From the IMG/VR virus record IMGVR_UViG_3300030047_000076, positions 1 to 33,581 of that record: a DNA stretch of 33,581 nt, one strand, 5' to 3'. This stretch comes from a virus. Position numbers and translations under genes: made by a program. The notes under the pieces are model-generated. The model did no database searches, had not been told where the DNA came from, and saw only the letters and a list, made by a program, of their open reading frames with translations. Within the stretch, counting starts at the first letter, position 1. Every line of letters starts with the position of its first letter. Of the stretch, positions 1,189-33,518 are shown one piece after another.

Positions 1189-1200
1189 AACCTTACTACT

Positions 1201-3206: not shown

Positions 3207-3225
3207 AATATTTTGTAAAAAATCC

Positions 3226-3256
3226 TTGTTTGTTAATTTTATTTTTATTATATTGC
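3226..3256 (+). promoter_or_regulatory. possible promoter before the UvsY/SSB/RecA gene block
   Basis: The 74-base gap 3207-3280 is the widest gap on the rightward strand and is very A+T-rich. It contains TTGTTT (3227-3232) followed 16 bases later by TATATTGC (3249-3256). That fits a sigma-70-like -35/-10 pair, and loosely fits the Bacteroidota TTTG ... TAnnTTTG promoter. An abundant product (SSB) downstream makes a local promoter reasonable. This is pattern match only. Confidence 0.3.
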
Positions 3257-3280
3257 ATACCAATCCTAAAATCATAAATT

Positions 3281-3784: not shown

Positions 3785-3809
3785 TGTTAATTTTTTAAAT
3801 TAAAAACAA

Positions 3810-5276: not shown

Positions 5277-5279
5277 ATC

Positions 5280-5642
5280 ATGCCAATTTTAAAAGTATTC
5301 CATAAAGAATGCAAAGACTTAAATAGTGCAAAACACCTGGGGGTAAAATTGCCCCCGGGTCTTGCGAATACATTAAATTTGTATTCTTTGGCAAACGGAT
5401 CTTCCAAGACAAAATTAATCATCAGTCTTGTTGAGAAATGGGAAGCTGGAATTGACAAAGAAAAACTCATTACTAAAATATCTGATAGATGTCTTACACT
5501 TTGGAAATTAAAAAAAGCTAAAGATAGCAGCACATTGATTCGCATATTTAAGGAAGAGTTGATTGCAGAGTTAGAATGGAAAGGTTTATCGGAAGACACA
5601 ATCAAATCTATTTTAATAAATTTCAATAATGGAACGAAGTAG
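5280..5642 (+). CDS. ribbon-helix-helix-like small protein
   Basis: This 120-residue product starts 4 bases after the SSB stop and overlaps the recombinase gene by 14 bases. Residues about 20-55 have a beta strand (GVKLPPGLANTL) followed by two helices with NGSSKTKLIISLVEKW, the pattern of ribbon-helix-helix DNA-binding proteins. The rest is helical and unassigned. It could be a DNA-binding accessory or a local regulator. A strong GC hairpin lies within its first codons (5336-5359). Fold assignment is by pattern only. Confidence 0.6.
   Translation: MPILKVFHKECKDLNSAKHLGVKLPPGLANTLNLYSLANGSSKTKLIISLVEKWEAGIDKEKLITKISDRCLTLWKLKKAKDSSTLIRIFKEELIAELEWKGLSEDTIKSILINFNNGTK
5336..5359 (+). other. 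GC-rich stem-loop inside the RHH-like gene
   Basis: CCTGGGGG (5336-5343) can pair with CCCCCGGG (5352-5359) around an 8-base loop TAAAATTG, giving an 8-bp stem with one T-G wobble. It begins about 60 bases after the SSB stop. It is an outlier in A+T-rich DNA. No T-run follows on either strand, so a simple intrinsic terminator is unlikely. Confidence 0.55.
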
Positions 5643-6681: not shown

Positions 6682-6684
6682 GTT

Positions 6685-6837
6685 ATGTTGACAAAGAATA
6701 GTGCTACGTGGTTTCAAAGAAGGAAGAACTTCATTATGGATGCTGTATTGTATGCTGTTCTTCTTTATGTTTACGGATTTATGCTTTTTATGGCTTTCAA
6801 TTCTGCAAGGTTTGTTTTTAAATTCTTTGTAGAATGA
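6685..6837 (+). CDS. small membrane protein, 50 aa
   Basis: ATG 6685 to TGA 6835-6837. It begins 3 bases after the recombinase stop and shares an ATGA overlap with the next gene, which argues that it is translated. A basic N-terminus (FQRRKNF) precedes one hydrophobic segment (about 19-39, AVLLYVYGFMLFMAF) and a short basic tail. Probably a single-pass inner-membrane protein; function unknown. Confidence 0.6.
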   Translation: MLTKNSATWFQRRKNFIMDAVLYAVLLYVYGFMLFMAFNSARFVFKFFVE

Positions 6838-7124
6838 TACGGACAAGAAAAAAGTCTACAGAAGGATTGTGCTGGACAATAGGTTATTTGATCCAGTACA
6901 ATCCTCCTGCATTGTTTAAATTAATGACTCTAGAACGTGCCTTGGATTCCGTAAATTGGTTTCCTTGTCCACTGCCTAATTATTATTACATTTTTAGAGT
7001 GTCAAAAAAAGGCAAGTACTACGTCAGATATAAGATGTATGGCAATCAATGGAACATTTGTCTACCATCTATTAAATATAAACAGAAAAAACCAATACCT
7101 TACAATTTAACCTGGGTAAGATGA
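6834..7124 (+). CDS. hypothetical protein, 96 aa
   Basis: A basic, Tyr/Trp-rich protein with no recognised motif. It has four-base overlaps at both ends (ATGA at 6834-6837 and again at 7121-7124), so it sits inside a chain of translationally coupled small genes between RecA and RuvC. No signal peptide; function unknown. Confidence 0.65.
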   Translation: MIRTRKKSTEGLCWTIGYLIQYNPPALFKLMTLERALDSVNWFPCPLPNYYYIFRVSKKGKYYVRYKMYGNQWNICLPSIKYKQKKPIPYNLTWVR

Positions 7125-7297
7125 GAAGAACTTACAAATGTCTTGTGATAGAAGGATTTACTTCTTTTATTGATAAAGTTACTGTAGATGACATAGACCC
7201 TATCAGGAACATTAAAAATGAATTGGTAAAGTACAACATATCACAAAATCAAAAAGAACTTCCTCATCGTAGATTATTAAGAATACGAACAGCCTAA
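7121..7297 (+). CDS. hypothetical protein, 58 aa
   Basis: ATG 7121 overlaps the previous stop in an ATGA. The product starts MRRTYKCLVIEGF and ends in a basic LPHRRLLRIRTA tail. It is an alpha/beta-looking, basic small protein without a recognised family. Support comes from gene spacing only. Confidence 0.55.
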   Translation: MRRTYKCLVIEGFTSFIDKVTVDDIDPIRNIKNELVKYNISQNQKELPHRRLLRIRTA

Positions 7298-7306
7298 AAC
7301 CTACAA

Positions 7307-7549
7307 ATGACAATCAACTACTATGTTGTCCAGGAAAACAAACTTAAAGAAAGACAAAACAAATTTCTATTCTCAGACGATACTAAGGTAGAATTGTTTG
7401 TTGGATCAGAAGTTGCATTTAAAAGAAAAACATATAAAGTGATGGAAATAGGCATCCAAAGAGTAAGCCTTGTTCATGCACTTTGTTACGAAGTTAAGAA
7501 ACCAAAAATACCAATAATATGGAAAGAAGATCCTTCTTTAGAAACCTAG
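7307..7549 (+). CDS. hypothetical protein, 80 aa
   Basis: An 80-residue, mostly beta-strand-looking protein (KVELFVGSEVAFKRKTYKVMEIG) with no recognised family. Its last 31 bases overlap the start of the twin-arginine-signal gene. It belongs to the small-gene chain between the recombinase and resolvase genes. Unknown function. Confidence 0.6.
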   Translation: MTINYYVVQENKLKERQNKFLFSDDTKVELFVGSEVAFKRKTYKVMEIGIQRVSLVHALCYEVKKPKIPIIWKEDPSLET

Positions 7550-8064
7550 CTGCTTTAGGTGTTATTGCAGCATCTCCGAAAATACTGCAAGAAATACAAG
7601 CTGCAGAAGCACCAATTGTTCCTAAGAAAATTATTCCAGAGGTAAAAACTCCGACTCCTATTGTTACAAGACCTAATAAAGAAGAAGCAATATTAGGAGA
7701 GGTTCAAATATATTCTTTAAAAGGAGAGTACATTTGTAATTTATATTCAGCAACGGTTTCCTCTTCTTTTGAACCTATACAGGTTGGACATGAATATATT
7801 CAAGGAAGACAATCTCACATGATGAAAGGAACCATGGACAATTACTATGCTCACCAATTATTAGCATCGGATGAAGCTGTTCATTGTAAAATAAATCAAG
7901 TAGAAGATATGTTGATTTCTTTTAATGCCTATATAACTGAATGCACACAAATAAATTCCACAGAGTTTATAAGGTGTGAAACCTCTTTTGCTATTTCAGG
8001 AATGATTACAATTGAAGACACAGACAAAAAAGATTATTGGAAACCTAAATCACAAAATACTTAA
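7519..8064 (+). CDS. putative exported protein with Tat-like signal
   Basis: The N-terminus MERRSFFRNLAALGVIAAS has a twin arginine followed by an aromatic pair and a weakly hydrophobic stretch, then EIQAAEAP as a possible cleavage region. That resembles Tat signals, including short ones common in Bacteroidota. A Pro/Lys/Thr linker (33-55) and a beta-rich domain (about 58-170) follow. The mature part matches no family I know. Its place inside a DNA-metabolism operon is odd for an exported protein. A lysis, superinfection or cell-surface role is possible but not shown. The alternative is that the N-terminus is simply a cytoplasmic basic helix. Confidence 0.65.
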   Translation: MERRSFFRNLAALGVIAASPKILQEIQAAEAPIVPKKIIPEVKTPTPIVTRPNKEEAILGEVQIYSLKGEYICNLYSATVSSSFEPIQVGHEYIQGRQSHMMKGTMDNYYAHQLLASDEAVHCKINQVEDMLISFNAYITECTQINSTEFIRCETSFAISGMITIEDTDKKDYWKPKSQNT

Positions 8065-8065
8065 G

Positions 8066-8578
8066 ATGGAACGTAAAAGAACAAGAACACCACATCCAGA
8101 ATTACCTAAAGTAGATGCCCAGCATCAGAAAAGCAGTTACAACATTTTAGCAATAGATCCTGCCACACATTGCGGATGGGCTACATCAAGAACAGTCTAC
8201 GGTGTTTGGGATTTAACTGCTAAGAGAGACGAGTCCGCAGGTATGCGATTAATCAGACTTAGATCTAAAATGCACGAAGTGATTAATTCAGAGAAAATTA
8301 ATCTTGTAGTATTTGAACGTCCTGGAGGACAGTTTAAAGGTGCAATAATTGTCCAGTCAGAATTACAGGGACAGATTAAAGTAGTTTGTGAAGATCTAGG
8401 TATTAATTATAGAGCATATTCCTCAAAGGAAATGAAAGTAAAAGCTACTGGTAAAGGTAATGCTGGAAAGCCTGCTATGATTGCTGCCGCTCATTGTTTA
8501 CTTCAATATCCAGGTAAAAATGATAATGAGGCAGATGCTTTGTGGCTGTTGGAATTAGCTAAATCAGAATACAAATGA
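8066..8578 (+). CDS. RuvC-like Holliday junction resolvase
   Basis: The start at ATG 8066 is chosen because it follows the previous stop by one base. The in-frame Met at 8012 would extend into the upstream gene. The protein has 170 residues with an RNase H/RuvC fold signature: D31 in ILAIDPATHCGWA, E84 in VVFERPGG, and D153/D157 in NDNEADALWLL. These acidic residues bind the two metals. It is expected to cut branched DNA produced by recombination-dependent replication. A 4-base overlap with the Rad50-like gene suggests coupling. Confidence 0.85.
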   Translation: MERKRTRTPHPELPKVDAQHQKSSYNILAIDPATHCGWATSRTVYGVWDLTAKRDESAGMRLIRLRSKMHEVINSEKINLVVFERPGGQFKGAIIVQSELQGQIKVVCEDLGINYRAYSSKEMKVKATGKGNAGKPAMIAAAHCLLQYPGKNDNEADALWLLELAKSEYK

Positions 8579-9669
8579 CAATCCAGAGATTAACAATCGA
8601 GAACATTCAATCACATAAACACTCGGAGTTAGAATTCCATCCAGGTGTTAATGTAATTGTCGGAACTTCTGATTGTGGAAAGACTGCAATTATAAGATCC
8701 TTAAAGTTAGCAGCTTTTAACAGACCGTCTGGAGATGGTTTACGTTCTAATTGGGGTGGACGTTCTTCTGTTGCTGTATTACTTGCTGACGGAAACCTTA
8801 TTACTAGGGTTAAAGACAAGCGAGAAGAGTATTGGTTAAATGATACTGAGTTTAGAGCGTTTGGATCAGAAGTACCAAAAGAGATTTCAGAGACTCTAAA
8901 CTTTAGTGAAATCAATCTACAGAATCAAATGGACAGTTCTTTCCTGTTAAGTTCAACGGCAGGAGAGGTTGCTTTACATTTTAACAAGATTGCAAAAATT
9001 GATCAGATAGACAAAGCAATTACTACAATCAATGGTAAAATATCCAAACTAAAATCTGATATTGAGTATACCAAAAATGATGTTGAAAAACAGAAAGAGG
9101 ATTTGCTTAATTACGAGTTCTTAGAAAAGTTTGAGATAGAGGTTGAGTCTTTAGAATTATTAACTAAGCAGGTTAAAAGTTTTAAAGGTAATTGCAGCGA
9201 CTTAACTGTTTTGCTTTCTAACATTGAAGAAGTGCAAGAATCCATTGAAGAAACAAAGAAAGTACTTGCATTAGATAAATACGTTACAGAAGCAATAGGC
9301 TTGCGAAATCTTTGTGAAACATCCTTAATCTCGCAAGGCAAGTTAATCTCATTGATTAAAGGCATTAAATTGACAGAAACGGATATTGAAGAAAGGACAG
9401 CTTTGTTAGGATTGCAACCTGAGGTAGAGAAACTGTTGAAGGATATCAAAGTTGTAGAAACTAAAAAAGCAGAATGGAATACTTTTTATCGGTTTATAGT
9501 GAACATCAAAAGTACCATAACTGATTTAAAGACAACTCAAATTCTCTTGCAATCCAATTTGGATATTTTTGCAAAAGAAATGCCTGACGTTTGCCCGTTA
9601 TGCGGAACAAATTTATTAGATAATCCTTACGGGGATCTTGAAGGAATGCACAAACATTTTGAAGACTAA
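8575..9669 (+). CDS. SbcC/Rad50-like ATPase, N-terminal half ending at a zinc hook
   Basis: This 364-residue protein carries the N-lobe of an SMC/Rad50 ATPase: Walker A GTSDCGKT (30-37) and a Q-loop in INLQNQMD (113-120). A coiled-coil arm of about 200 residues follows, then CPLC (340-343), a zinc-hook-type motif only 21 residues from the end. It lacks the signature motif, Walker B and H-loop, and these lie in a separate gene at 11123-11734. It should need that partner to form an ATP-binding site. The SbcD/Mre11-like nuclease gene follows after 2 bases. The product would process DNA ends as T4 gp46/gp47 does. Confidence 0.88.
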   Translation: MTIQRLTIENIQSHKHSELEFHPGVNVIVGTSDCGKTAIIRSLKLAAFNRPSGDGLRSNWGGRSSVAVLLADGNLITRVKDKREEYWLNDTEFRAFGSEVPKEISETLNFSEINLQNQMDSSFLLSSTAGEVALHFNKIAKIDQIDKAITTINGKISKLKSDIEYTKNDVEKQKEDLLNYEFLEKFEIEVESLELLTKQVKSFKGNCSDLTVLLSNIEEVQESIEETKKVLALDKYVTEAIGLRNLCETSLISQGKLISLIKGIKLTETDIEERTALLGLQPEVEKLLKDIKVVETKKAEWNTFYRFIVNIKSTITDLKTTQILLQSNLDIFAKEMPDVCPLCGTNLLDNPYGDLEGMHKHFED

Positions 9670-9671
9670 AA

Positions 9672-10553
9672 ATGGAACGTCAAAGGAATAATATAACCAA
9701 AGAAGTAGATGCTATACTAACGGCAGATTGGCATTTGCGACTAGATACTCCTATTTGTAGGACAGACAACTTTCCTAAAACAGAATGGGGAAAAGTAGAT
9801 TTTATTTCTGCATTGCAAAGGAAATATCAATGTCCTGTGTTCCATGCTGGAGATTTATTTGATAAATGGAATCCTAGTGCAGAGCTATTGTCTGAGGCAT
9901 CTAAACACATGCCAGAAAACTTCTTTTCTGTTTATGGGAATCACGACACACCGCAGCACAATCTTGAACTTGTTTATAAATGCGGATTGTACAATTTAAT
10001 GATAAACGGAAAAGTTTCAGTTCCACAGAACGGACATTGGAATCAATCATTAGGTGACGGCAGGACAGGTTGGATTGTTCGTGGAAGACAATTAACCATG
10101 CAGCACATTATGACATACCAAGGATTAGAGCCTTGGCCGGGTTGCACAGATCCTAAAGCTGCAAAGCTATTAAGGAAATATCCGCAATTTGATTTAATAC
10201 TAACAGGAGATAATCATCAAGCATTTGTTGAAGAACACAAAGGCAGATTACTTGTTAATCCTGGATCTATATTTCGCATGGATGCAGATCAAATTGATTT
10301 TAAACCTCGTGTTTATCTGTGGCACGCTGCGGATAATACAGTTACACCCATATATATTCCAATCGTTAAAGAGTCAGTAAGTCGGGAACACTTAGATGTC
10401 ATTAAGGAAAGAGAAAATAGGATAGATGCTTTTATTTCTAAGTTAAATGGAGATTGGAAAATATCAATGTCTTTTGAAGACAACCTTGAGCAATTCAAAA
10501 AATTGAATAAAGTTAAATCAAAAGTAATGACTATAATCTATGACGCTTTATGA
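9672..10553 (+). CDS. SbcD/Mre11-like nuclease (gp47-type metallophosphoesterase)
   Basis: This 293-residue metallophosphoesterase has ADWH (D19, H21), GDLFD (60-64), GNHD (89-92), H145, and TGDNHQ (178-183), where other members have GHxH. VNPGSI follows. These residues bind the two metals of Mre11 nucleases. It lies directly after the Rad50-like N-half and before the pieces that complete the ATPase, so a Rad50-Mre11-like end-resection complex is very likely. The C-terminal helices could contact the coiled-coil base. It overlaps a 49-residue ORF by 4 bases. Confidence 0.88.
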   Translation: MERQRNNITKEVDAILTADWHLRLDTPICRTDNFPKTEWGKVDFISALQRKYQCPVFHAGDLFDKWNPSAELLSEASKHMPENFFSVYGNHDTPQHNLELVYKCGLYNLMINGKVSVPQNGHWNQSLGDGRTGWIVRGRQLTMQHIMTYQGLEPWPGCTDPKAAKLLRKYPQFDLILTGDNHQAFVEEHKGRLLVNPGSIFRMDADQIDFKPRVYLWHAADNTVTPIYIPIVKESVSREHLDVIKERENRIDAFISKLNGDWKISMSFEDNLEQFKKLNKVKSKVMTIIYDAL

Positions 10554-10699
10554 AAAAACCATGCTTAACCCGAAGACAAAGAGTATTTTTAGAATGGCAC
10601 AGAACCAATGTTATTAAAACCTCTGAAGGTGCTCTTATAGAGCATAAACTATGTTGGCTCCGGCTTTTTAGAGAAATTAGAAAACTATTAGAAAGATGA
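10550..10699 (+). CDS. small basic protein, 49 aa
   Basis: ATG 10550 overlaps the nuclease stop (ATGA), and TGA 10697-10699 overlaps the next ATG. Its sequence (MKKPCLTRRQRVFLEWHR... REIRKLLER) is helical and strongly basic. No family is recognised. Double four-base overlaps are good evidence that it is translated. Confidence 0.55.
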   Translation: MKKPCLTRRQRVFLEWHRTNVIKTSEGALIEHKLCWLRLFREIRKLLER

Positions 10700-10887
10700 T
10701 AATCACTCCATTGGAATTATTGCAGAAGCAGTTGTTGGAATTAGAAAGGGATAAAGAAAAATCACAAGAGATGTTTACCAACAGAGTAATAGGTCAGCAT
10801 ACTCATTTGATGCATTTGTCTAATCTAGAACCTGCAATCAAAGAATATAAATTAGCTATTTTTAAATTAAACGAATCACATTTTTAG
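10696..10887 (+). CDS. small helical protein, 63 aa
   Basis: A 63-residue charged protein with two amphipathic helices (LELLQKQLLELERDKEKSQ and NLEPAIKEYKLAIFKLNE) joined by a His-rich turn (GQHTHLMH). It may be a short coiled-coil hairpin. It sits between the Mre11-like gene and the coil protein of the split ATPase. Function is unknown; a subunit or adaptor role is conceivable. Confidence 0.6.
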   Translation: MIITPLELLQKQLLELERDKEKSQEMFTNRVIGQHTHLMHLSNLEPAIKEYKLAIFKLNESHF

Positions 10888-10889
10888 TC

Positions 10890-11126
10890 ATGACTGAAAC
10901 TCAATTATTAAAATTAAAGAAAGAGATTGACAACTCAAAAGAGGAAGTCTCTCAGAAAAAAGGACAGCTTACAGCATTACTGACTCAGCTCAAAAATGAT
11001 TGGGGTTGTGATACTGTAGAAAAAGCTGATAAGAAATTAGTCTCTATGAAGACAGAATATCAAAAAATGTCCGATGCTTTAGAAAAGGGATTGGAAGAAC
11101 TTGAGGAAAAATATGAGGCTTTATGA
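10890..11126 (+). CDS. coiled-coil protein, 78 aa, next to the Rad50 C-half
   Basis: This is a helix-turn-helix coiled coil: about 33 residues of heptads, a NDWGCDTVEKADKKL turn, then a second run of heptads. It shares an ATGA with the Rad50-like C-half gene. Its length plus the roughly 65-residue coil of the C-half (about 140) is within range of the coil arm of the N-half, so it may complete or cap that arm. That is inference. The single Cys (C40) is not a CxxC hook. Confidence 0.65.
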   Translation: MTETQLLKLKKEIDNSKEEVSQKKGQLTALLTQLKNDWGCDTVEKADKKLVSMKTEYQKMSDALEKGLEELEEKYEAL

Positions 11127-11734
11127 CAACTGCAACCCAATTAAGACAAAAATTAGAACAAGCTAAAGGGAGAAAACTTCAGATTGAAAAGAATCTAAAA
11201 CAACTGAAGGGAACCTTAAAGAGTTCTAAAAAGTCTTTAATACGACATGAGCAAGCTAGGGAAATTGTCAGAGAAGTGGGAATGAAAACTCAACAGCAAT
11301 TACAGTTCCATATTTCTGACATAACCTCTTTAGCTTTAGAATCCGTATTCTCTGATCCTTATGAACTTTCTGTAGAGTTTGTTCAAAGGAGAAATAAAAC
11401 AGAATGTGACTTAATGTTTGTTCGAGACGAGTGTAAAGTTAAGCCTTTAGATGCTGCTGGAGGTGGAACTGTTGATGTTGCTGCATTTGCTTTGAGGATA
11501 GCTTCTTGGTCTATGCTTGAGGATGCTTCATCGAACACAATTGTCTTAGATGAACCTTTACGTTACCTTTCTGTTGATTGTCAAGAACGTGCTTCCCAAA
11601 TGATAAAAGATCTGTCTACTAAATTAGGTATTCAGTTCATTATTGTTACACATGAAGAAACTTTAGCTGCATACGCAGACAGGGTATTTGAAGTATCAAT
11701 TAAAAAAGGAATCTCAAAAATCAAATCATCATGA
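11123..11734 (+). CDS. SbcC/Rad50-like ATPase, C-terminal half
   Basis: A 203-residue protein opening with a coiled coil (about 1-60). It carries the C-lobe elements of the ABC/SMC ATPase: a signature segment LDAAGGGTVDVAAF (109-122), Walker B TIVLDEP (139-145), a D-loop at about 148-151, and an H-loop VTHEE (175-179, H177). No Walker A is present. It complements the N-half encoded at 8575-9669, with 1.45 kb and four other genes between them. The function should be ATP-driven control of the Mre11-like nuclease. This looks like a stable arrangement and not decay, since all key residues are intact on both sides and start codons are well placed. Confidence 0.85.
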   Translation: MTTATQLRQKLEQAKGRKLQIEKNLKQLKGTLKSSKKSLIRHEQAREIVREVGMKTQQQLQFHISDITSLALESVFSDPYELSVEFVQRRNKTECDLMFVRDECKVKPLDAAGGGTVDVAAFALRIASWSMLEDASSNTIVLDEPLRYLSVDCQERASQMIKDLSTKLGIQFIIVTHEETLAAYADRVFEVSIKKGISKIKSS

Positions 11735-24790: not shown

Positions 24791-25228
24791 TTATGCACCT
24801 GGAGAGCTTGATTCTTGTCCAGAGTTACAAGTTACAACACCACTGATTTGAATAGTAACATCAAGTGTCACTGCTTCTTTTGCACTAATTGTTAATGGAA
24901 GTTCTGTCACCATCCCTTGGAACTCAAAAGATGTTTTTACAGCATCCCCAAGAACAATTTCGTAGTTCTGAAGTTCATCAGTTTCAAAGTCTGCTTTCAA
25001 GGCATCAAAGCCATCACGAGAGAAGTTCATTGACAAAGAGATTGTCCCTGAGTCACGAAATCCTGCAATGTACTCTTTATACCCTCCGGTACTGTCCATG
25101 TTTGTTACTTCGATCGGATCCCTTTTGAAGCCGGGTCCTTTGATAGAAGTAATCTCAGAAATGACAACCCAATCAGAGCCATTCCATTTCTGAAAAATAG
25201 TTCCTACACCACTAAATGCTTTCGTCAT
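24791..25228 (-). CDS. major tail (tube) protein
   Basis: A 145-residue protein of the lambda gpV/TP901 tail-tube type: ISEITSIKGPGFKRDPIEVTNMDSTGG, an IAGFRDSGTISLSMNF stretch, and EFQGMVTELPL near the C-terminus. These mark strands of the tube fold. It is preceded by a strong Shine-Dalgarno sequence, as expected for an abundant virion protein. It lies upstream of the chaperone and tape measure genes in the usual order. No tail sheath gene is seen, which supports a siphovirus. Confidence 0.88.
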   Translation of the reverse strand: MTKAFSGVGTIFQKWNGSDWVVISEITSIKGPGFKRDPIEVTNMDSTGGYKEYIAGFRDSGTISLSMNFSRDGFDALKADFETDELQNYEIVLGDAVKTSFEFQGMVTELPLTISAKEAVTLDVTIQISGVVTCNSGQESSSPGA

Positions 25229-25270: not shown

Positions 25271-25882
25271 TTAATAAGGATACTTACAATACTTCATCCC
25301 AAGATTATGTCCTTTATGAGAATCCCTCATCTTTTGCTTAGTTTCTTCAGAAAGAGTGCTTCCTTTACGTTTACTAGAAGTTCCTAATTTTAAAAAAGAC
25401 ATTTTAAGTTTGGATTCTTCAGAATGCTTTCTTCCTGACATACCAGATATTTTTCTTGAAGAAGCTGCTATAGACATTTTAAGTTTAGTTTCTTCAGAAA
25501 TCACTTTGCCTTTGTTATTTAGACCATTTGTGTTTCCTTTTAATTTTTCACTTAAATTTCTTTTGTATTCTTCAGAATGTTTAACACCTGCACAACTGCC
25601 TGCAATTGGACATCTATTATACCCATTGGGACTAAGTGTTTTGTAATGATCAATTCGTTTCTGTTCTTTTAACAATAATTCATCAGGTTCACAGTAAATC
25701 AGAACTTCAAAAACAAAAGCATCTGCACCATACAAATCCCAGTCTTTTTGTAACACCTTATTAGAATAACTGAATTTTAAACATTGCAAATGATGTTTCC
25801 ATCTTCTCTCAATATTTAAAGAGCTTCCAATATACCGTTTACCGTTTACCAAATTCCTTATCTGATAAATTCCAGAACTCAT
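25271..25882 (-). CDS. GIY-YIG homing endonuclease with NUMOD3 repeats
   Basis: This 203-residue protein has an N-terminal GIY-YIG nuclease domain: GIY (4-6), KRYIGSS (15-21) with YIG at 17-19, R26, E73 as the likely catalytic Glu, and NGYNRCP (86-92). Three or more NUMOD3-type repeats follow (about 103-190: KHSEEYKRNLSEKLKG, ISEETKLKMS, KHSEESKLKMS, LSEETKQKM). It is a mobile DNA-cutting gene inserted in the tail module between the tail terminator and the tail tube. The ATG overlaps the upstream stop by 4 bases. It has no role in virion assembly. Confidence 0.9.
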   Translation of the reverse strand: MSSGIYQIRNLVNGKRYIGSSLNIERRWKHHLQCLKFSYSNKVLQKDWDLYGADAFVFEVLIYCEPDELLLKEQKRIDHYKTLSPNGYNRCPIAGSCAGVKHSEEYKRNLSEKLKGNTNGLNNKGKVISEETKLKMSIAASSRKISGMSGRKHSEESKLKMSFLKLGTSSKRKGSTLSEETKQKMRDSHKGHNLGMKYCKYPY

Positions 25883-26274
25883 GATCTACGTTGAATATTA
25901 AAGTTTACAATAAAACGAGGCCGGTTATTCTCATCCCAATCCAGTAGTGCTGGTCCGCTGGAGCAGTATATTACAGAATATAAAGTCCCATTCCACGTCT
26001 CTTGTGCCCGGCCGTGAAGTGAGTTCTTTATAATTTCTGCCAAAATCCATCCTTTTTGATAATCTGTCGATCTTACCCTAACTTGTACAGATGGATTATC
26101 TATTCCTGCCCCATCTAGGGTTAACTGAGGCGGAATCACTGAGTAGTCAAATAAAGTTGCTGTCTCAGAAGGTTTTGCAGGTTCTTGTCCTATGAACAAA
26201 TTTGTAGCGAATACTAATCCTAGATCAGATTCTGCTACTAACATATCTTTTATATCTTCTGAGGCTGAGTTCAT
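25879..26274 (-). CDS. tail terminator-like protein
   Basis: The start at ATG 26274 (MNSASEDIKDMLV) is chosen because it lies 4 bases after the upstream stop. An in-frame Met at 26304 would overlap the previous gene by 26 bases. The roughly 131-residue protein has an N-terminal helix, then VQVRVRSTDYQKGWILAEIIKNSLHG and a beta-rich end with NNRPRFIVNFNIQR, similar to phage tail terminator/minor capsid proteins. The position between the HK97 gp10-like gene and the tail tube gene supports the tail terminator role at the head-tail joint. Confidence 0.7.
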   Translation of the reverse strand: MNSASEDIKDMLVAESDLGLVFATNLFIGQEPAKPSETATLFDYSVIPPQLTLDGAGIDNPSVQVRVRSTDYQKGWILAEIIKNSLHGRAQETWNGTLYSVIYCSSGPALLDWDENNRPRFIVNFNIQRRS

Positions 26275-26278
26275 GTCT

Positions 26279-26671
26279 TTATGGTATTTTTGTTTCTGAT
26301 GCAATTATTTGTAATAGTACATCCCAATTTCTCATTATTGCTTGTTCAAAGAATTTAGGTCCGGATCCAGGTCTTGTCCAATTTACTGCACCAAGCATTT
26401 CATGTACCCAAAGAGCATAACTGGCGTAAAATCCCATCTCTATACCATGTTCTCTGTTCACTGTGATAGAATGTTGCTGCCAGCTATCTCTTAGGTTTCC
26501 TAAATCTACAGGAATCAAAGGAATGGTGTTGTCCATATCCCTTCTGATAAATTTAGCCATTTTCTGCAAGCCTTTTGCATTCCTGTCTTTTAAAGCTATA
26601 ACCTCCTTATTGAAGTTTGAAATAACTTGTTCAAACCCTCTTATACTTGCTCCTGAGATTCCTTGAGGCAT
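26279..26671 (-). CDS. HK97 gp10-like neck/tail completion protein
   Basis: This 130-residue protein has the HK97 gp10 pattern: a helical start (GFEQVISNFNKEVIALKDRNAKGLQKMAKFIRRD), then PVDLGNLRDSWQ, YASYALWVHEM, and GPKFFEQAIMRN. Members act in the neck or as tail-completion proteins. Its position among head-tail joining genes agrees. Fairly secure. Confidence 0.8.
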   Translation of the reverse strand: MPQGISGASIRGFEQVISNFNKEVIALKDRNAKGLQKMAKFIRRDMDNTIPLIPVDLGNLRDSWQQHSITVNREHGIEMGFYASYALWVHEMLGAVNWTRPGSGPKFFEQAIMRNWDVLLQIIASETKIP

Positions 26672-26675
26672 GGTG

Positions 26676-27062
26676 TTAGTTATTTAGATTCTTGAATCCT
26701 AAAAACAATGTTCTGACAAATACTTTATTTGATTTTATCATTGGTATTTTGTCAATGGCAACAATCTCATAGGCTCCAAAAATGTCTTTAGGATTAGCTA
26801 ACGACGGGTATATTGATAAATCAGAAAGTGTTCCTAAAAATAACCAACCTTCAAAATCTAAATCTTGTGTTACCAAAATAGAGGCTTTAGAGGTTTGTTC
26901 TTTTCCTTTAGGATCAACAAATGTTCTTTGCATGTCTTCCCATCTGCATTTGATTTCTATCGGTTCATCAAATGTAGCATTGCCATAACCGTCTTTTGTT
27001 GGGTTTCCCCAATACACAGCAGTCTGGACACATACTTTCTTTATGAAGCTAGTGATACTCAT
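26676..27062 (-). CDS. head closure / head-tail joining protein
   Basis: A 128-residue, beta-rich protein (QTAVYWGNPTKDGYGNATFDEPIEIKCRWEDMQ) in the slot normally held by head closure or stopper proteins, between the connector adaptor and the gp10-like gene. The GWLFLGT and AYEIVAIDKIP stretches fit the small beta-barrel of that family. Assignment rests on pattern and synteny. Confidence 0.7.
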   Translation of the reverse strand: MSITSFIKKVCVQTAVYWGNPTKDGYGNATFDEPIEIKCRWEDMQRTFVDPKGKEQTSKASILVTQDLDFEGWLFLGTLSDLSIYPSLANPKDIFGAYEIVAIDKIPMIKSNKVFVRTLFLGFKNLNN

Positions 27063-27065: not shown

Positions 27066-27431
27066 TTAGGATTTTATTGCATAAATGGTAGCTACCTTTT
27101 TTCCGTCTTGAGCAGCCATTAAACCGGTTGTGTCAAGAGTTAAAACCATCTGTCCATATGGAGTAGATTTTAATCCTTCTTCATATTTGCCAGTGTATGT
27201 TATTGAAGCGCCGCCTGCTCCTTCTTTAATTGCCATCCTTTCTCTGGTACATGCAATCATGTGAGCAGTAAACCAGCGTTCAATTTCTTTTAGGATATCT
27301 GTAGTTCCTAAACCTAATACTGAATTTACCAAAGTATTCGCAGAAGTTATGTAATACCCTATCTGCGGATCAGACAATTCTGTATTGTCTAAAATTGCTC
27401 TTACCTCTTTTGCTGTTACTCTTGCTGCCAT
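27066..27431 (-). CDS. head-tail connector adaptor
   Basis: This 121-residue protein is mostly helical: VTAKEVRAILDNTELSDPQIGYYITSANTLV, then LKEIERWFTAHMIACT and a short beta end (GGASITYTGKYEEGLKSTPYGQMVLTLD). This is the pattern of gp6/gp15-like adaptors that sit below the portal. Next to the head closure gene in the usual order. Confidence 0.8.
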   Translation of the reverse strand: MAARVTAKEVRAILDNTELSDPQIGYYITSANTLVNSVLGLGTTDILKEIERWFTAHMIACTRERMAIKEGAGGASITYTGKYEEGLKSTPYGQMVLTLDTTGLMAAQDGKKVATIYAIKS

Positions 27432-27442: not shown

Positions 27443-28108
27443 TTAGAATAGTTTTTTAACTTGCTCTTCAAAATTTGGAGGTATTGTTAATCCTAGCCAA
27501 TTTATTATTTCATACATTTGTTCAAAATCCCCGTCTCGCATTCTCTCCGGCCATATCACTTTACAGTTTAAACCAGCATCTACCATCTCTACAAAACGGT
27601 TTTCCTGCTCGTGTACCCACCACAGCCAACCGTCAGCCTCATTCGCTGCATTTACCTTTTGAAGATTGGCTTTATCTTTAAAAGCAGACATAAAGCCTGT
27701 TTTAATACAACTTTGCACGATATCGCCTGTTCTACGCCTAACTACAATCCACTTGGCTTCAGGATATAAATTATTCCACACCGGCCATGTTTGTCCAATT
27801 CTTGAACTTTTATACAACCAGAGATTATCTCCTTTATACCCTTCTCTGTCAAGAATCTTTTTAATAGTAGACTTCCAATTATGGGTATATAGGTTAATGT
27901 ACGGTTGTTCTGGTATTGGAAACTGTCCTCTTGGATCTAAATTATTGTCTCCGTACAAATGACTTACCAAAGTTTTAATTGAATGATTTTCATGCATCTT
28001 TGTGGTACATCCTGTAAACACACCACAAGACTCAATAATTTTAGCAACAATGGTAGATCCTGATCTTTCTATGCCGGTAATTAGAATAGGTTTGTTTGAG
28101 TAGTTCAT
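27443..28108 (-). CDS. sulfotransferase-like protein
   Basis: This 221-residue protein begins ILITGIERSGST (P-loop GIERSGST, 12-19), the 5'-phosphosulfate-binding loop of sulfotransferases. It continues to IVVRRRTGDIVQS (121-133), which fits the 3'-phosphate-binding Arg...Ser motif. Such enzymes move sulfate from PAPS to a sugar or other hydroxyl. It is the third gene of a cassette with two glycosyltransferase-type genes, all lying between capsid and connector genes. It could add sulfate to a glycan on the virion or on the host surface; the substrate is not knowable from sequence. The start overlaps the upstream gene by 4 bases. Confidence 0.8.
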   Translation of the reverse strand: MNYSNKPILITGIERSGSTIVAKIIESCGVFTGCTTKMHENHSIKTLVSHLYGDNNLDPRGQFPIPEQPYINLYTHNWKSTIKKILDREGYKGDNLWLYKSSRIGQTWPVWNNLYPEAKWIVVRRRTGDIVQSCIKTGFMSAFKDKANLQKVNAANEADGWLWWVHEQENRFVEMVDAGLNCKVIWPERMRDGDFEQMYEIINWLGLTIPPNFEEQVKKLF

Positions 28109-29328
28109 AGTTTGTAAGTTTCTTTGATTGTGTTTCTTAGATTTTCTGGTAACACCTTTTCATGTTTATCACGGTACATACTTGAATTATGTCCGTTTCC
28201 TATCCCTCCTCTTCCTGGCAACCCTTTTATGCCTACAGACAAATTTAAACCTTTTAAAAACTGAATATTTTTTGCTTCTTTAAAAAATGAAATGTCAATA
28301 TATTTTTCCTGGTATTTTAAAACCTCCTCAAACAAGTTAATCATCTTTGGAGTAAATGCTGTCTGAAATAAGCTAGAATGCTTTGTGTTGACACACCTGC
28401 GTTCTGACTTTAATTGTACGTTATAATAGACTGTCTGAATCTCTCCAACAACATCAAATCCTTTTAAAGCAGCAGTCATAACAGACAAATATTTTGGAGT
28501 ATAGTAGTCATCATCCTCAATGATAAAAACTGCATCTACATCATACTTTTTAACTTCCTCAATACCTGCTTTTAAATTTCTTGCTTGAGTGTTATCTCCT
28601 TCCTTCCAAATAGGGAATGGATAAAATTTTACTATTGTCCAATCTTCTCTGAAATCTTCAGGTACTGTATTTACAGTAGTCGGGTAACAATCATCAACCA
28701 AAATCCAAATAACAGGGCCAGAGTATGTTTGATTTTTCATAAAGCCCATACAATGTTTAATCTGTTCTGGACGTCCTCCTGTTGGTGTAATCAGTGCAAT
28801 CGGTTTTCTTTTAGGTGTAATCCATTCACAATTGAGGTTCTTTACATACTCCTTCATTTTTGTAGCTTGGGTAACATACGCTTTAGGAAAATACGGTTTG
28901 CTGGTGTCAAAAGTCGTTACATCTCCGGTAGTGCATGAGTCAAAAGAAATAAATACAAACTTGACACATCCCATAATTTCTGCCATTTTGATTGCAATTA
29001 TGGCTGAAAAAGTGTCTATTGGAAACCCCATTTCTTTTGCATCAAATTCTAAATAAGACAATTTCGGTTTACCGATAGTTTTAACAGACTCGTGTTTATG
29101 CAAAATTAATGTGGTTGATTCTTTTACAGGAACAGTAAACTGATCTTTTTGAAGAGAATATATACTGTTAGGTAGTTCTAATTCTTCAACTTTAATGATA
29201 GCTTGATTTAAAGTGATAACAAGACCTTCCTTTACCATTGTCTTGGTAAGGTAATTCAAACTTGGACCTTTCCCGACAATGTATGCTGTCTGTCCAATAT
29301 GTGTGTCTTTTATATCATCTGTAAACAT
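28105..29328 (-). CDS. two-domain protein: DUF115/GT42-like N-domain plus GT-A glycosyltransferase
   Basis: A 407-residue protein. Residues 1-172 have GQTAYIVGKGPSLNYL, LVITLNQA and CVKFVFISFDS, a Rossmann-like pattern shared with the next upstream gene and with GNGPS-type sialyltransferase-like proteins. Residues about 176-407 are a GT-A glycosyltransferase: PIALITPTGGRPEQIKHC, WILVDD (208-213), and FIIEDDDYYTPKYL, where EDDD (271-274) is the likely metal-binding DxD site. It is predicted to transfer a sugar from a nucleotide sugar. It overlaps both neighbours in the cassette. The acceptor is unknown. Confidence 0.78.
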   Translation of the reverse strand: MFTDDIKDTHIGQTAYIVGKGPSLNYLTKTMVKEGLVITLNQAIIKVEELELPNSIYSLQKDQFTVPVKESTTLILHKHESVKTIGKPKLSYLEFDAKEMGFPIDTFSAIIAIKMAEIMGCVKFVFISFDSCTTGDVTTFDTSKPYFPKAYVTQATKMKEYVKNLNCEWITPKRKPIALITPTGGRPEQIKHCMGFMKNQTYSGPVIWILVDDCYPTTVNTVPEDFREDWTIVKFYPFPIWKEGDNTQARNLKAGIEEVKKYDVDAVFIIEDDDYYTPKYLSVMTAALKGFDVVGEIQTVYYNVQLKSERRCVNTKHSSLFQTAFTPKMINLFEEVLKYQEKYIDISFFKEAKNIQFLKGLNLSVGIKGLPGRGGIGNGHNSSMYRDKHEKVLPENLRNTIKETYKL

Positions 29329-30008
29329 TATGCAATATCTTTAAAGTTGACTTTTTTAAATCCTTCAATTTTACTTTCTGGACTGCAATTAAGAACCTCA
29401 ATATTAAGTTTCTTTAGATCATGCACCATTGATCCAAATCCATCTAAATGTGACCTCAATGTTCTTCCAATTGTTCTAGGATCTGTTGCATAAAATTTAT
29501 GCCAATGCTGATTTTTGTTTGTGTCTAACGACATATCAAATCCCAACAATATGATCCTTTTTACTCCTGTATGTACTGCAACATTGATGGCAGAAGATCC
29601 GCTGTTATTATTCCAACTAAGCATTCTAGGATCATCAGTAATGCCGAACTTCTGTTGTTTATTCTTTGCAATGTATTTTACACCTTTGACATCTAAAATA
29701 TCAGGAGCACAAGAAACTCTTAAGCCCCGAAAATTTAAAATATCGTATTTATTTTTTTTCCAATAACTAGGATCTCCGAAAAACAACATGTCTATCCAAT
29801 CTCCCAATTTGTAGGCCATGTTTACCGCAATAATGTGTTCTGCATGGATACGTTCCAAGTATGGGGAGTAGGACGAAACATCCGCTTTTCCTTCATAAAC
29901 TTGCTTTACTAAAGACTCCGGGATATCAAACTGTTTAATTATAGAAGGACCACCTCCAATAATTACACATTGTCCACCATCCCATACTTTTGGAACTGTC
30001 CATTTCAT
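29328..30008 (-). CDS. DUF115/MptE-like Rossmann protein (phage norphogenetic-type)
   Basis: This 226-residue protein contains GGQCVIIGGGPSI (11-23), HIIAVNMAYKLGDWIDMLFFGD, SSAINVAVHTGVKRIILLGFDMS and a QHWHKFYA stretch. The pattern is of DUF115/MptE-like or GT42-like enzymes found near head genes in many phages, sometimes annotated norphogenetic protein. The GGGPS motif recalls the CMP-sugar loop of Campylobacter-type sialyltransferases. Activity is unproven. It overlaps the GT gene by one base and shares its fold with that gene's N-domain. Confidence 0.75.
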   Translation of the reverse strand: MKWTVPKVWDGGQCVIIGGGPSIIKQFDIPESLVKQVYEGKADVSSYSPYLERIHAEHIIAVNMAYKLGDWIDMLFFGDPSYWKKNKYDILNFRGLRVSCAPDILDVKGVKYIAKNKQQKFGITDDPRMLSWNNNSGSSAINVAVHTGVKRIILLGFDMSLDTNKNQHWHKFYATDPRTIGRTLRSHLDGFGSMVHDLKKLNIEVLNCSPESKIEGFKKVNFKDIA

Positions 30009-30011: not shown

Positions 30012-30440
30012 CTAATCTCCCAAAACCGTTAGTAATTCTTCAGCAGATGCTTTACTTAAAGGAGCCTCATTGATAGGTTTTCCTTTTTCATTAACAACAT
30101 TCCAAAGATCACCTTCTACTTCTTCCAAATGGTAAACTTCTGGAGGTACAGGTAATTTGTTAGGTGCTTTAGGAGCAACTGCATCACCGGGATCTACAAG
30201 GATTACGACGTTACGAAACGATTTAGGTATGTCATCAGGATCAGCCCAAAAAGTTTGGTTTGATTTGATATGATGATTCTCAAATAAGAAAGAACCTCCT
30301 CCGATTTTTCTAAAAAGAGATTTTATGGGCTGTTCAATGATAACAGCAGTTTCTTCGACTTCTTCAACAACAACCTTTTTCTCTTTTTTAACTTTTCCTT
30401 CGGGTTTGTCTGCTCTTACCCGTACTCTTTTATTTTCCAT
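30012..30440 (-). CDS. head-associated hypothetical protein, 142 aa
   Basis: This protein has a Lys/Glu/Val-rich N-terminal tail (about 1-40) and a small beta domain, GGGSFLFENHHIKSNQTFWADPDDIPKSF. Its C-terminus (NEAPLSKASAEELLTVLGD) is an SAP/HeH-like short helix pair. It directly follows the capsid gene, so it is probably a capsid-associated protein. No family can be named. Confidence 0.6.
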   Translation of the reverse strand: MENKRVRVRADKPEGKVKKEKKVVVEEVEETAVIIEQPIKSLFRKIGGGSFLFENHHIKSNQTFWADPDDIPKSFRNVVILVDPGDAVAPKAPNKLPVPPEVYHLEEVEGDLWNVVNEKGKPINEAPLSKASAEELLTVLGD

Positions 30441-30487: not shown

Positions 30488-31597
30488 TTATGCAAGATGC
30501 ACAACTCCGCTTCGTTTGTTCTGATCAGAACGAATCTGAGGAACCTGTATGGTAAGAACTTTGTATTTGGTAATAAATTTACCTTCTACGCCCCATTCTA
30601 CGTTCTGTAAGCCTAATCCTTGAACAAGGCGTACTACGTCAGAAGTCATTTGCACCAAAAGCACGTTGTCAGCTTCCAAGGTGTCAATTACTTTGATACC
30701 AGAGATACCAGCAATTTTCAAGATACGTTCGCGAATGGTCATCGTAGATGCACCAGCGGTATCATAATCATTGTCAATAACGGTGTCATAAGATGTTGGA
30801 ATGTACAACTGCCAAGGTCCGTAATGGTAGTCTGCAATAGAGGCATCTTTCATTGCCATTACATCTGCAACAATAGCAGCGGCAGTCTTGCCGGATTCGT
30901 TCCAAGCTACTTTCAACTGCACCAAGTTCCTGTCAGGATGGTTTACATAGCTGTAAATGGTGTTCTGTCCGCGAGAGTCTTTTTCTCCAAAAGAGTACTG
31001 TTGGTTGTCAGAAAACAACATTCCTTCCAATTTTTCCTGGATAGCTCTGGTTGCACGTTCAGCATCTGTGGTATCCAAAGGATTACCAAGTGAACGAGAA
31101 GCAGCAAGCTCACGGGCGTTGATTTCATAATCAACATGGATAATTGGAATTGGCAAGTAATTGTGCTGATATTTCGGTCTGTCATTCTTTCCACGGGTTA
31201 CACCGTCCATGGTAACAACAGCTTCCATATCCCCAGAAATATCATGCCATTCAAGAACAGTTGTTCCCATTGCATTTCCCAGATTGTAAACTAATCCTTT
31301 GGAACGTAAATCGTCAATACCGCCTAAGCGTTGACGAGAAACATCCATCAAAGCAGAATCCAATTGTTTCCACTCATCCCTTCTTAGGGTTGCATTAGTG
31401 TTAATGAACCTGGTATCCCAGTTAGTAGCAATTTTCGGGTCACCACCTTTATAAACAGTCATACAAGGCCTTCCTGTCTCATCAATAAATGGACGAAGAG
31501 CACCTACATTCAAACGACCGTTAGTGATGATGCCACCAGCAACTTCACCTGTAGCCTGGCCGTTTGCTCCCATTAAATCAACATTTGCTTCAAACAT
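30488..31597 (-). CDS. major capsid protein, encapsulin-like HK97 fold
   Basis: This 369-residue protein has IPIIHVDYEINARELAASRS, then TDAERATRAIQEKLEGMLF and GIKVIDTLEADNVLLVQMT, matching the encapsulin/linocin-like branch of HK97-fold capsid proteins used by many phages. It is flanked by decoration and protease-scaffold genes in the usual order. A strong Shine-Dalgarno precedes it. It should assemble the icosahedral head after processing by the protease encoded upstream. Confidence 0.87.
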   Translation of the reverse strand: MFEANVDLMGANGQATGEVAGGIITNGRLNVGALRPFIDETGRPCMTVYKGGDPKIATNWDTRFINTNATLRRDEWKQLDSALMDVSRQRLGGIDDLRSKGLVYNLGNAMGTTVLEWHDISGDMEAVVTMDGVTRGKNDRPKYQHNYLPIPIIHVDYEINARELAASRSLGNPLDTTDAERATRAIQEKLEGMLFSDNQQYSFGEKDSRGQNTIYSYVNHPDRNLVQLKVAWNESGKTAAAIVADVMAMKDASIADYHYGPWQLYIPTSYDTVIDNDYDTAGASTMTIRERILKIAGISGIKVIDTLEADNVLLVQMTSDVVRLVQGLGLQNVEWGVEGKFITKYKVLTIQVPQIRSDQNKRSGVVHLA

Positions 31598-31623: not shown

Positions 31624-32079
31624 TTAAACAATACGGATTTGAACACGTCCGTCAGGATCAACAGTAGAAGAATCCGACATGTCTACAGTTTTAAGGACTT
31701 GTCCAATGATCTGTAATGGAGTATAGTCTCCGGTGCTTTCAACATCGTAAACCTTTACTTTACCATTTCCAGCAGATACAACGAAGTCACCTGCATGGGC
31801 GTCTTCTCCGTCTTCCAGGATAGCATTTACCTGACAACCGCGTCCAGGAATCCAAACACGGACTGGATCAGTTGCTGCATAATTGTCGTCAATACCTTTG
31901 CCTTGCAAAGCATCTTCGATCGCGAACATCGGGATAGCATTACCGCCAGCTACATCATGAAAACCACAAGTGGTAGCTGATTTAACTTCTACAAGCATTC
32001 CTGGGGTAATTACTCCCGCGGCAACATACTCTTCAAAAATGTCAGAGTAGTTTTTCAAAATAACAGTATTCTTAGCCAT
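31624..32079 (-). CDS. capsid decoration / head stabilisation protein
   Basis: This 151-residue, beta-rich, Gly/Asp-rich protein has VAAGVITPGMLVEVKSATTCGFHDVAGG, then IPMFAIEDALQGKGIDDNYAATDPVRVWIPGRGCQVNAIL. That fits small head decoration proteins of the DUF2190 type. It lies between protease-scaffold and major capsid genes, the usual place, and has a strong Shine-Dalgarno. It would bind and stabilise the expanded capsid. Confidence 0.75.
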   Translation of the reverse strand: MAKNTVILKNYSDIFEEYVAAGVITPGMLVEVKSATTCGFHDVAGGNAIPMFAIEDALQGKGIDDNYAATDPVRVWIPGRGCQVNAILEDGEDAHAGDFVVSAGNGKVKVYDVESTGDYTPLQIIGQVLKTVDMSDSSTVDPDGRVQIRIV

Positions 32080-32105: not shown

Positions 32106-32540
32106 TTAATTACCAAGTTCCATTCCGGTAGGCAGCATATGTTCTGGGCCGCCTTTGTCTTTATTAGCATTCAAAGAAGTAGCATTTCCGTTTAAAGAAA
32201 AGTCAACTTCTTCTTTAGATACAGATTTAAACACTCTTTCCAAAGTGTCTTCATCCATTGCATTGAGGGTAGCTTCCGGCCAAAGGTCGGCTGCGGTGTT
32301 CTTTTGGATACCACTGATGTATGTTGACCTTTTCTTAGCCAACTCAGCTTTTCCAAATTCCAATGCTTTTGTGTCTTCTGCAGACATAGCAGCATTTACT
32401 TCGATCGTTTTTGGTACAAGAGCATCCAGCTGTTTTTCAGTTAGAGCTTGCAACATATCCCGATCGTCTTCGGTAAACCCTGTTGCTGAATTAGCAATCA
32501 GTTCGTTTGCCTTCTTTTCCACACATGGGGTACATGCCAT
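32106..32540 (-). other. possible nested scaffold protein from an internal start
   Basis: ATG 32540 (MACTPCVEKKANELIANS) is in frame with the protease gene, has an AAAAAGGAGA sequence upstream, and opens the helical, charged C-terminal part. The 144-residue product has the size and composition of a capsid scaffold, similar in logic to lambda C/Nu3. Confidence 0.5.
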
Positions 32541-33518
32541 ACTTGAAGTCTCCTTTTTATTAGTTCTTACTCGTTTTACATTTGTATTGATAGTTTCATA
32601 CTCTACCTTTTTCTTAACTTCGACAGCATTGCCGACGAATTCAGCAGCACCGGAGTCAACAACAAACTGGTAATTCTGTTTGTAGTACTTACATTCGCTA
32701 TTCCCTTCTTTTTCATAGATGAGATAGTCATCGTAAGCTTCAATCAAATAATACCAAGCATTGTCAGTGCCTCCATCGACATAGACGTTCAAAGATCTAA
32801 CAAGATCCCGAAGTTGATCGAGTTTCTCGTTTAATCCCTTTTCGGAGTTATCAACAATTGTGCTGATTTTATAACCCCCTTCTTTCAGTACTTGGATACT
32901 GCTATCCAATGTTACCTTTTCCACATTGAGTTCTCCTTTCTTTTGATTAGCACGAATACCACAACCATCTTCCAAAGAACATGCTCCAACGGCTCCGGGC
33001 AAGAGCGCCAAATGATCAGGTCTATGGTTTCTGGCAATAGCAGTATATTGTATTCCGTCATAGACTCCAGGAGTTGCTTCATCCTCTGTGAAAACACCAA
33101 CACTGATTTCTATAGGTTTCTTACTGTTTACGGCACTTAAAGTGTCGGCGGATACTTTGCCCAGTTTTTCCTCTTCAAGCCAGACTTCGCCGGTTAACTT
33201 GTTTGAAACAACTTGACAGTTATATACTCTACCTACAGCTAAATTTTCTACAACTTCAGGACTGTTTGCAGATATTGCATGTCCGTCAGATTCTGGATGA
33301 TTTATAACTACAGGTATTCCATTCCAGCTTTCAGGAAACTTTCCGAACTCTTCTGCAGGATGATATAATGGACCATGAGAACCATTTAAAACACCTTCTA
33401 CAATCATCACAACAGGAACAATTAAATGTTTCTTTTCTTGATGAATAGTTTCAGATACGGTGTATCCTGTTACTTGTTTTGCATTCTGCAAAAATGAGTA
33501 TGTTCCTAGAGCTTCCAT
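32106..33518 (-). CDS. DUF2213-type prohead protease fused to a scaffold-like C-terminus
   Basis: A 470-residue protein. The N-terminal part (about 35-190) has PLYHPAEEF, WNGIPVVINHPESDGH (66-80), PIEISVGVFTED (135-146, S139) and ARNHRPDHLALLPGAVGACSLEDGCG (162-187). These are DUF2213 prohead protease features with likely Ser and His residues. A middle domain (about 200-300) includes YLIEAYDDYLIYE. The C-terminus (about 327-470) is charged and helical and looks like a scaffold. Two in-frame starts with their own Shine-Dalgarno sites occur at 32924 and 32540, which could give nested shorter products. The main ATG itself has only an A-rich leader. Confidence 0.83.
   Translation of the reverse strand: MEALGTYSFLQNAKQVTGYTVSETIHQEKKHLIVPVVMIVEGVLNGSHGPLYHPAEEFGKFPESWNGIPVVINHPESDGHAISANSPEVVENLAVGRVYNCQVVSNKLTGEVWLEEEKLGKVSADTLSAVNSKKPIEISVGVFTEDEATPGVYDGIQYTAIARNHRPDHLALLPGAVGACSLEDGCGIRANQKKGELNVEKVTLDSSIQVLKEGGYKISTIVDNSEKGLNEKLDQLRDLVRSLNVYVDGGTDNAWYYLIEAYDDYLIYEKEGNSECKYYKQNYQFVVDSGAAEFVGNAVEVKKKVEYETINTNVKRVRTNKKETSSMACTPCVEKKANELIANSATGFTEDDRDMLQALTEKQLDALVPKTIEVNAAMSAEDTKALEFGKAELAKKRSTYISGIQKNTAADLWPEATLNAMDEDTLERVFKSVSKEEVDFSLNGNATSLNANKDKGGPEHMLPTGMELGN
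32549..32558 (-). promoter_or_regulatory. internal Shine-Dalgarno before Met 327 of the protease-scaffold gene
   Basis: The minus strand reads AAAAAGGAGA (32558-32549). GGAG lies about 9 bases from ATG 32540, inside coding sequence. Confidence 0.6.
32933..32940 (-). promoter_or_regulatory. internal Shine-Dalgarno before an in-frame GTG (residue 199)
   Basis: The minus strand reads GAAAGGAG (32940-32933), 8 bases before GTG 32924, just where the protease domain ends. It codes for KKGE in the long product, so it could also be chance. Confidence 0.5.

Follow-up and report, generated by a model that had tools for sequence, protein, structure and literature searches.

A DUF115-led glycosyltransferase and sulfotransferase gene island between the capsid and connector genes of a phage lineage

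Three overlapping genes between capsid and connector genes

The virus record IMGVR_UViG_3300030047_000076 of IMG/VR was analyzed over its full length of 33,581 bases (the window, i.e., the whole stretch of DNA). On its minus strand, three overlapping genes lie between the major capsid gene and a group of connector-type genes. Their predicted products are a DUF115-like protein, a fusion protein with a GT-A glycosyltransferase domain, and a sulfotransferase that would use 3'-phosphoadenosine-5'-phosphosulfate (PAPS). Judged by gene order in relatives, this trio is an almost minimal form of an island that is conserved and at the same time hypervariable. An earlier note on this DNA had described three overlapping genes at this position, and the open reading frames (ORFs) bear this out, with overlaps of 1 and 4 bases at TAATG and ATGA junctions. 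The trio consists of the following features.

29328-30008, minus strand: DUF115/MptE-like protein, 226 amino acids; PHROG 4603; constant upstream border of the island
28105-29328, minus strand: fusion protein, 407 amino acids; weakly DUF115-like N-terminal domain plus GT-A glycosyltransferase
28813-29328, minus strand: N-terminal domain of the fusion, amino acids 1-172; possibly a degenerate second DUF115 copy
28105-28800, minus strand: predicted GT-A (GT2-type) glycosyltransferase domain, amino acids 177-407; EDDD metal/nucleotide-sugar motif at amino acids 271-274
27443-28108, minus strand: predicted PAPS-type sulfotransferase, 221 amino acids, from Pfam, family profile, fold and motifs; downstream border of the island

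The trio is located downstream of the major capsid gene (30488-31597), from which it is separated by a single small gene (30012-30440), and upstream of connector-type genes at 27066-27431, 26676-27062, 26279-26671 and 25879-26304. Because the genes overlap or are closely spaced, the trio is probably co-transcribed with the head genes. Promoter and terminator scans gave counts close to those of shuffles (32 vs. 28.5; 6 vs. 4.8), which is uninformative, and they were not used.

The last gene of the trio is predicted to encode a PAPS-type sulfotransferase. Its product scored 28.0 bits against Pfam Sulfotransfer_3 (cut-off 27), and when the family profile was compared with solved structures only the tyrosylprotein sulfotransferases TPST1/2 were found at E<0.01 (best 1.3e-4). 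A phmmer search of the PDB with the single sequence gave only chance matches to xylanases, and it was the family profile that resolved the identity. The structure was predicted at a pLDDT (predicted local distance difference test) of 92, and all 24 matches at E<=1e-3 in a fold search of the PDB were sulfotransferases. The best of these was a tyrosylprotein sulfotransferase, with structures of enzymes acting on other acceptors (Stf1, STF9, olefin synthase domain) scoring almost equally.

The residues expected to bind PAPS are strongly conserved. The 5' phosphosulfate-binding motif (RSGT/S) is present as TGxERSGST at amino acids 11-19, with R15 and G17 found in 77 of 77 relatives and S16 in 76. 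The 3' phosphate-binding R125 and S133, which correspond in the alignment to the TPST1 Arg and Ser, are likewise retained in 77/77, and so is K100. E40 occurs in 71 of the 77 and lies near, but out of register with, the TPST catalytic Glu region. Pfam, family profile, fold and invariant residues thus uphold the earlier assignment of a PAPS-type sulfotransferase. Replaced active-site residues in relatives had been named as a sign against the proposal; R15, G17, R125 and S133 of the sulfotransferase (77/77) and the EDDD motif of the glycosyltransferase (70/70) are all conserved. The median ratio of nonsynonymous to synonymous substitution rates of the sulfotransferase is about 0.11, vs. 0.10 for the capsid gene.

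The product of the first gene had been called DUF115/MptE-like. It belongs to PHROG 4603 (E 1.3e-34) but stays below the Pfam cut-off for MptE-like PF01973 (23.1 vs. 34.6 bits). We term it DUF115-like rather than a member of the Pfam family. N63, D79, S136, G137, G156 and D158 are kept in 48 of 48 relatives. PHROG 4603 is labelled alpha-2,3-sialyltransferase, a label without significant support here: in a test against the GT42 alpha-2,3-sialyltransferases, Campylobacter CstII appeared at best with E 0.24, ranked after unrelated ferritins, and a sub-profile missed CstII.

The fusion protein had been read as a similar domain joined to a GT-A glycosyltransferase. Its C-terminal part is predicted to be a GT-A enzyme by fold, though it falls outside Pfam GT2 membership (17.9 bits vs. 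a curated cut-off of 23.3). The AlphaFold model of this domain has a pLDDT mostly above 90, Foldseek matched it to SpsA, TarP, TarS and WrtF (GT2, GT-A) at E 1e-7 to 1e-10, and the EDDD sequence is a DxD-type motif. The N-terminal domain of about 170 residues is possibly a degenerate second DUF115 copy. Its signals are weak, with E 0.013 against Pfam MptE-like at amino acids 6-44 and E 0.016 against the DUF115 profile in hhalign (probability 3%, yet with the GFD motif in register), which fits this half of the earlier description without proving it. The domain was modelled at a pLDDT below 50, its relatives were found in near-identical contigs only, and it did not match the second DUF115 protein of Tetraselmis virus S20.

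A recurrent island with constant borders and a variable middle

A search with the glycosyltransferase returned 80 viral loci. Many of these share, at roughly 40-60% protein identity, the order protease, decoration, capsid, small gene, DUF115, variable stretch, glycosyltransferase, sulfotransferase, connector, adaptor, neck and tail genes. Since this order recurs in dozens of relatives at such identities, the arrangement of the trio is beyond chance. The same search also gave relatives of the glycosyltransferase domain at 42-54% identity in loci such as L032, L033, L040 and L047, viral contigs that showed none of the capsid-block genes of this lineage.

When a sulfotransferase profile was used together with profiles made from genes of the window itself, 105 loci containing 73 distinct sulfotransferases were found, and a connector gene directly follows the sulfotransferase in 68 of these 73. 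Because all these loci had been selected by an enzyme, the search was repeated with the capsid protein alone. This yielded 65 distinct capsids, including 37 loci in which the whole interval to a connector gene was visible (closed loci). A DUF115 gene followed the capsid block in 37/37 closed loci, and a sulfotransferase was present in 34/37. The interval from capsid to connector in closed loci ranges from 1.0 to 9.8 kb. DUF115 was missing from three capsid loci, in each of which the sequence ends within 0.5 kb after the capsid gene.

Some islands depart from the common layout. In L232 (8368-10921) the island is apparently empty, with DUF115 followed directly by the connector and neither a glycosyltransferase nor a sulfotransferase, and two sulfotransferase genes per island occur in L127 (5267-8613) and L144 (639-3434). 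Assigning a host from genome bins was also tried and rejected: the three bin matches (Spirochaetota, Firmicutes and Bacteroidota) contradict one another and probably reflect phage contigs that were placed in bins.

All 376 ORFs from DUF115 to the sulfotransferase across the islands are on the capsid strand. Removal of the short DUF115, glycosyltransferase and sulfotransferase genes leaves 244 cassette ORFs, which fall into 96 clusters at 35% identity. According to Pfam, the island glycosyltransferases include GT2, GT8, GT92-like and GT32-type enzymes, and the other enzymes include nucleoside diphosphate-sugar epimerases, S-adenosylmethionine (SAM) and FkbM methyltransferases, sugar C-methyltransferases and radical SAM proteins. 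They are often fused in differing combinations, e.g., DUF115, GT8 and methyltransferase in L004. Loci L020 and L024 have near-identical capsids and otherwise matching islands, and a radical-SAM-type ORF (L020:8014-9117) is present in the former and absent in the latter. This difference is a recent gain or loss of a whole gene inside the island. Constant borders around a changing middle are the arrangement seen in a surface-glycan locus that is undergoing diversification.

Sugar-nucleotide enzymes occur in the islands of relatives only, and none was found in the window. Nor was adenosine 5'-phosphosulfate (APS) kinase found above its family cut-off in 11 relatives, which means that PAPS would have to be supplied by the host. 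Within the window, the trio is therefore not a full pathway.

Genes of this kind are not confined to the lineage. The DUF115 family alone was found in 73 phage records. The DUF115 proteins of Pseudomonas phages PAJU2 and U7, Tetraselmis virus S20 and Caulobacter phage CcrColossus are of the same PHROG 4603 type, at 25-31% identity. In PAJU2 and U7 the gene stands among head-joining genes with a methyltransferase within a few genes after it, and in S20 the stretch from the head protease to a head-closure gene holds two DUF115 genes together with glycosyltransferases and a methyltransferase. Sugar genes led by DUF115 and close to head genes thus recur outside the lineage. In the P1-like Punavirus 673R5 (L238), a DUF115-like match adjoins putative morphogenetic genes (PmgM).

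Proposed function, acceptor and competing explanations

We propose that the trio is a cut-down version of an island for the glycosylation of virions in the cytoplasm, one that includes sulfation and has constant borders and a variable middle, an explanation we consider probable. In the cytoplasm of a cell at a late stage of infection, host nucleotide sugars would serve the DUF115-like protein and the GT-A enzyme to build or attach a short glycan, and the sulfotransferase would add sulfate from host PAPS. Swapping of the middle enzymes from phage to phage would make the glycan differ between lineages. That DUF115 and the sulfotransferase persist through these exchanges makes it probable that they work on a shared part of the glycan, which could be the attachment or first sugar for DUF115 and a common residue for sulfation. 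As acceptor we infer a head or tail protein from the same operon. The neighboring genes, with candidate acceptors indicated, are listed below.

32106-33518, minus strand: head maturation protease; DUF2213
31624-32079, minus strand: head decoration protein; PHROG 766, E 2.6e-7; candidate acceptor
30488-31597, minus strand: major capsid protein; DUF6260 / PHROG 771; candidate acceptor
30012-30440, minus strand: small gene, 142 amino acids, between the capsid gene and the island; conserved
27066-27431, minus strand: connector-type protein; DUF4054; adjoins the sulfotransferase in nearly all relatives
26676-27062, minus strand: head-tail adaptor; PHROGs 3881 and 793
26279-26671, minus strand: HK97 gp10-like / Neck1 protein, from Pfam/PHROG searches
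24791-25228, minus strand: major tail protein; PHROG 158, E 1.2e-19; candidate acceptor

Divergence of the sulfotransferase correlates with that of three virion genes, for connector, adaptor and capsid (r 0.37-0.52; p 0.001 by permutation), about as strongly as connector and capsid correlate with each other (0.48). Purifying selection acts on the border enzymes, and in diverging along with virion genes they resemble core genes of the virion. A hydropathy scan found at least two transmembrane-like segments in none of the 244 cassette ORFs, and the controls GtrB and GtrC of Salmonella phage P22 were positive, from which it follows that a self-contained lipid-linked, membrane-flipped route is not encoded. 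The earlier suggestion that the virion is the target thus gains strong, though circumstantial, support from the fixed position, the co-divergence, the conserved active sites and the lack of polytopic membrane proteins, with the acceptor itself still a prediction.

The same evidence bears on the alternative that the island modifies host surface glycans (lipopolysaccharide, capsule, teichoic acid or S-layer), either to block superinfection or to change the receptor so that progeny can escape. Sugar-modification gene sets of large phages have been interpreted in this way (PMC7824862), sugars bearing sulfate or methyl groups are a typical feature of glycans on bacterial surfaces, and rapid cassette change fits competition for receptors. 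P22 gtrABC, like the island, is a phage-encoded sugar modification. However, it consists of membrane proteins for lipid-linked transfer beside attP and int, whereas the cassette ORFs include no flippase, ligase or polytopic membrane protein, and no polytopic transferase of the kind used in gtrABC-type serotype conversion. Among 12 viral records, mostly 62-73 kb long, a single one has a tyrosine integrase, and the absence of this gene from the other 11 makes lysogenic conversion unlikely as a general role. Furthermore, the island is part of the head operon expected to act late, and its divergence follows that of virion genes. We regard host-surface modification, which the earlier note had offered as its alternative, as weakened by the late head-operon position and the lack of polytopic membrane proteins, and as unlikely overall.

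The sulfotransferase might also sulfate a virion protein directly, on tyrosine or another side chain, while the adjacent glycan enzymes do a separate job. Tyrosylprotein sulfotransferases being the sole structures found by the profile below the E-value threshold, and the best fold match, would fit this, as would the constant place of the gene beside the connector whatever the cassette contains, including one locus (L086) where it stands there alone. On the other hand, the enzymes with other acceptors match almost as well, and 34/37 closed loci pair the sulfotransferase with DUF115. The apparently empty island of L232, the only locus with DUF115 right before the connector, lacks the sulfotransferase, as expected if that enzyme acts on a glycan. 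Direct protein sulfation is, in our view, a distinctly improbable explanation of the locus.

Least likely, and indeed very improbable, is that the enzymes hypermodify DNA bases of the phage with sulfated sugars, even though there is a proposal that phages have DNA modification systems with glycosyltransferases and sulfotransferases (Iyer 2013, as cited in PMC10829341). No member of the thymidylate-synthase or dCMP-hydroxymethylase families was found in 11 records of 54-73 kb, which disfavors hydroxymethylated DNA as the acceptor. TET/JBP searches gave no match, but control genomes gave none either, so this absence is uninformative. The trio is also placed in the head operon rather than among the replication genes (124-11734).

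Several points weigh against virion glycosylation with sulfation. Position in a late operon indicates timing rather than target, and soluble glycosyltransferases could also work on membrane lipid-linked host glycans. The hydropathy scan was a simple one, and its threshold for a single helix does not settle the matter, as P22 GtrA gives one segment. In L086, from a contig binned as Bacteroidota, a lone sulfotransferase (9980-10687) stands between the small gene and the connector; DUF115 and the cassette are absent at the site, and no DUF115 match was found elsewhere in the bin. A pure glycan-sulfation explanation does not account for this layout. Conversely, L171 and L221 have the cassette without a sulfotransferase, and in CcrColossus the DUF115 homologue and glycosyltransferases lie between tail genes and endolysin, away from the capsid gene.

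The record is an incomplete genome, with its left end near a DNA polymerase gene and its right end at the head protease. No portal or terminase gene was assigned among the window ORFs. The genome was read as siphovirus-like, with replication genes on the plus strand and head and tail genes, including a tape-measure protein, on the minus strand. The small gene between capsid and island had no Pfam or PHROG match; its homologues occur in 42 of 73 representative loci, and several relatives (L010, L019, L020, L081) have it in duplicate. A GIY-YIG-type homing endonuclease gene (25271-25882, minus strand) lies between the major tail protein and tail-completion genes, and in relatives genes of this type either occur there or close by (L009, L016, L081) or are missing. 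An HNH/homing endonuclease gene (1424-2308, plus strand) separates a DNA polymerase gene fragment (124-1188) from a clamp loader gene.

Relation to known systems and implications

For mycobacteriophages it is established that phage enzymes glycosylate the virion (Freeman 2023, as cited in PMC11256854). According to the same account, soluble phage-encoded glycosyltransferases modify capsid proteins of the cluster F1 mycobacteriophages Che8 and Rita, the function proposed here, and the island shares with this system a soluble phage-encoded glycosyltransferase. It differs in that the glycosyltransferases of Maravista are near the 3' end of the genome instead of between capsid and connector. The passages of PMC11256854 on this system describe no sulfotransferase or exchangeable DUF115-led cassette, and the chemistry of the island is predicted from its genes.

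TPST1/2 and bacterial Stf have the fold of the window sulfotransferase, the P-loop-like 5' phosphosulfate motif and the 3' phosphate Arg/Ser motif in common with it, at 12-17% identity; the window enzyme is smaller, soluble and phage-encoded. Annotated viral sulfotransferases (Synechococcus phage S-SCSM1, Xanthomonas phage FoX4 and uncultured Caudovirales) share the fold, with weak structural similarity at 9-15% identity. Against 50,697 phage records, the window sulfotransferase and glycosyltransferase proteins had no convincing match, and a DNA search with the trio gave none. Searching the literature on DUF115 in phages returned nothing relevant by title and abstract. Mycobacteriophage virion glycosylation and annotated viral sulfotransferases are already known; judged against the literature searched by title and abstract, the new element is a conserved yet hypervariable glycan island that includes a sulfotransferase and keeps its place between the capsid and connector genes throughout a phage lineage.

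More broadly, and with rather less confidence than for the trio itself, we suggest that the capsid operon of a whole uncultured phage lineage may contain a dedicated serotype-like locus, with constant border enzymes around an exchangeable middle, whose products would coat the virion with a sulfated glycan specific to the lineage. Such a locus would resemble bacterial O-antigen loci but act on virus particles. Most phage capsids are taken to be bare protein. If the suggestion is true, a large environmental phage group devotes up to about 10 kb to a sugar coat that is variable and negatively charged. This would matter for adsorption of virions to particles or hosts, for resistance to proteases and predators, and for how these viruses recognize or avoid each other. 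DUF115 and the sulfotransferase, as anchor genes, would predict which phages have modified virions. They would also offer a functional hypothesis for the many phage genes beside head genes that are annotated only as alpha-2,3-sialyltransferase.

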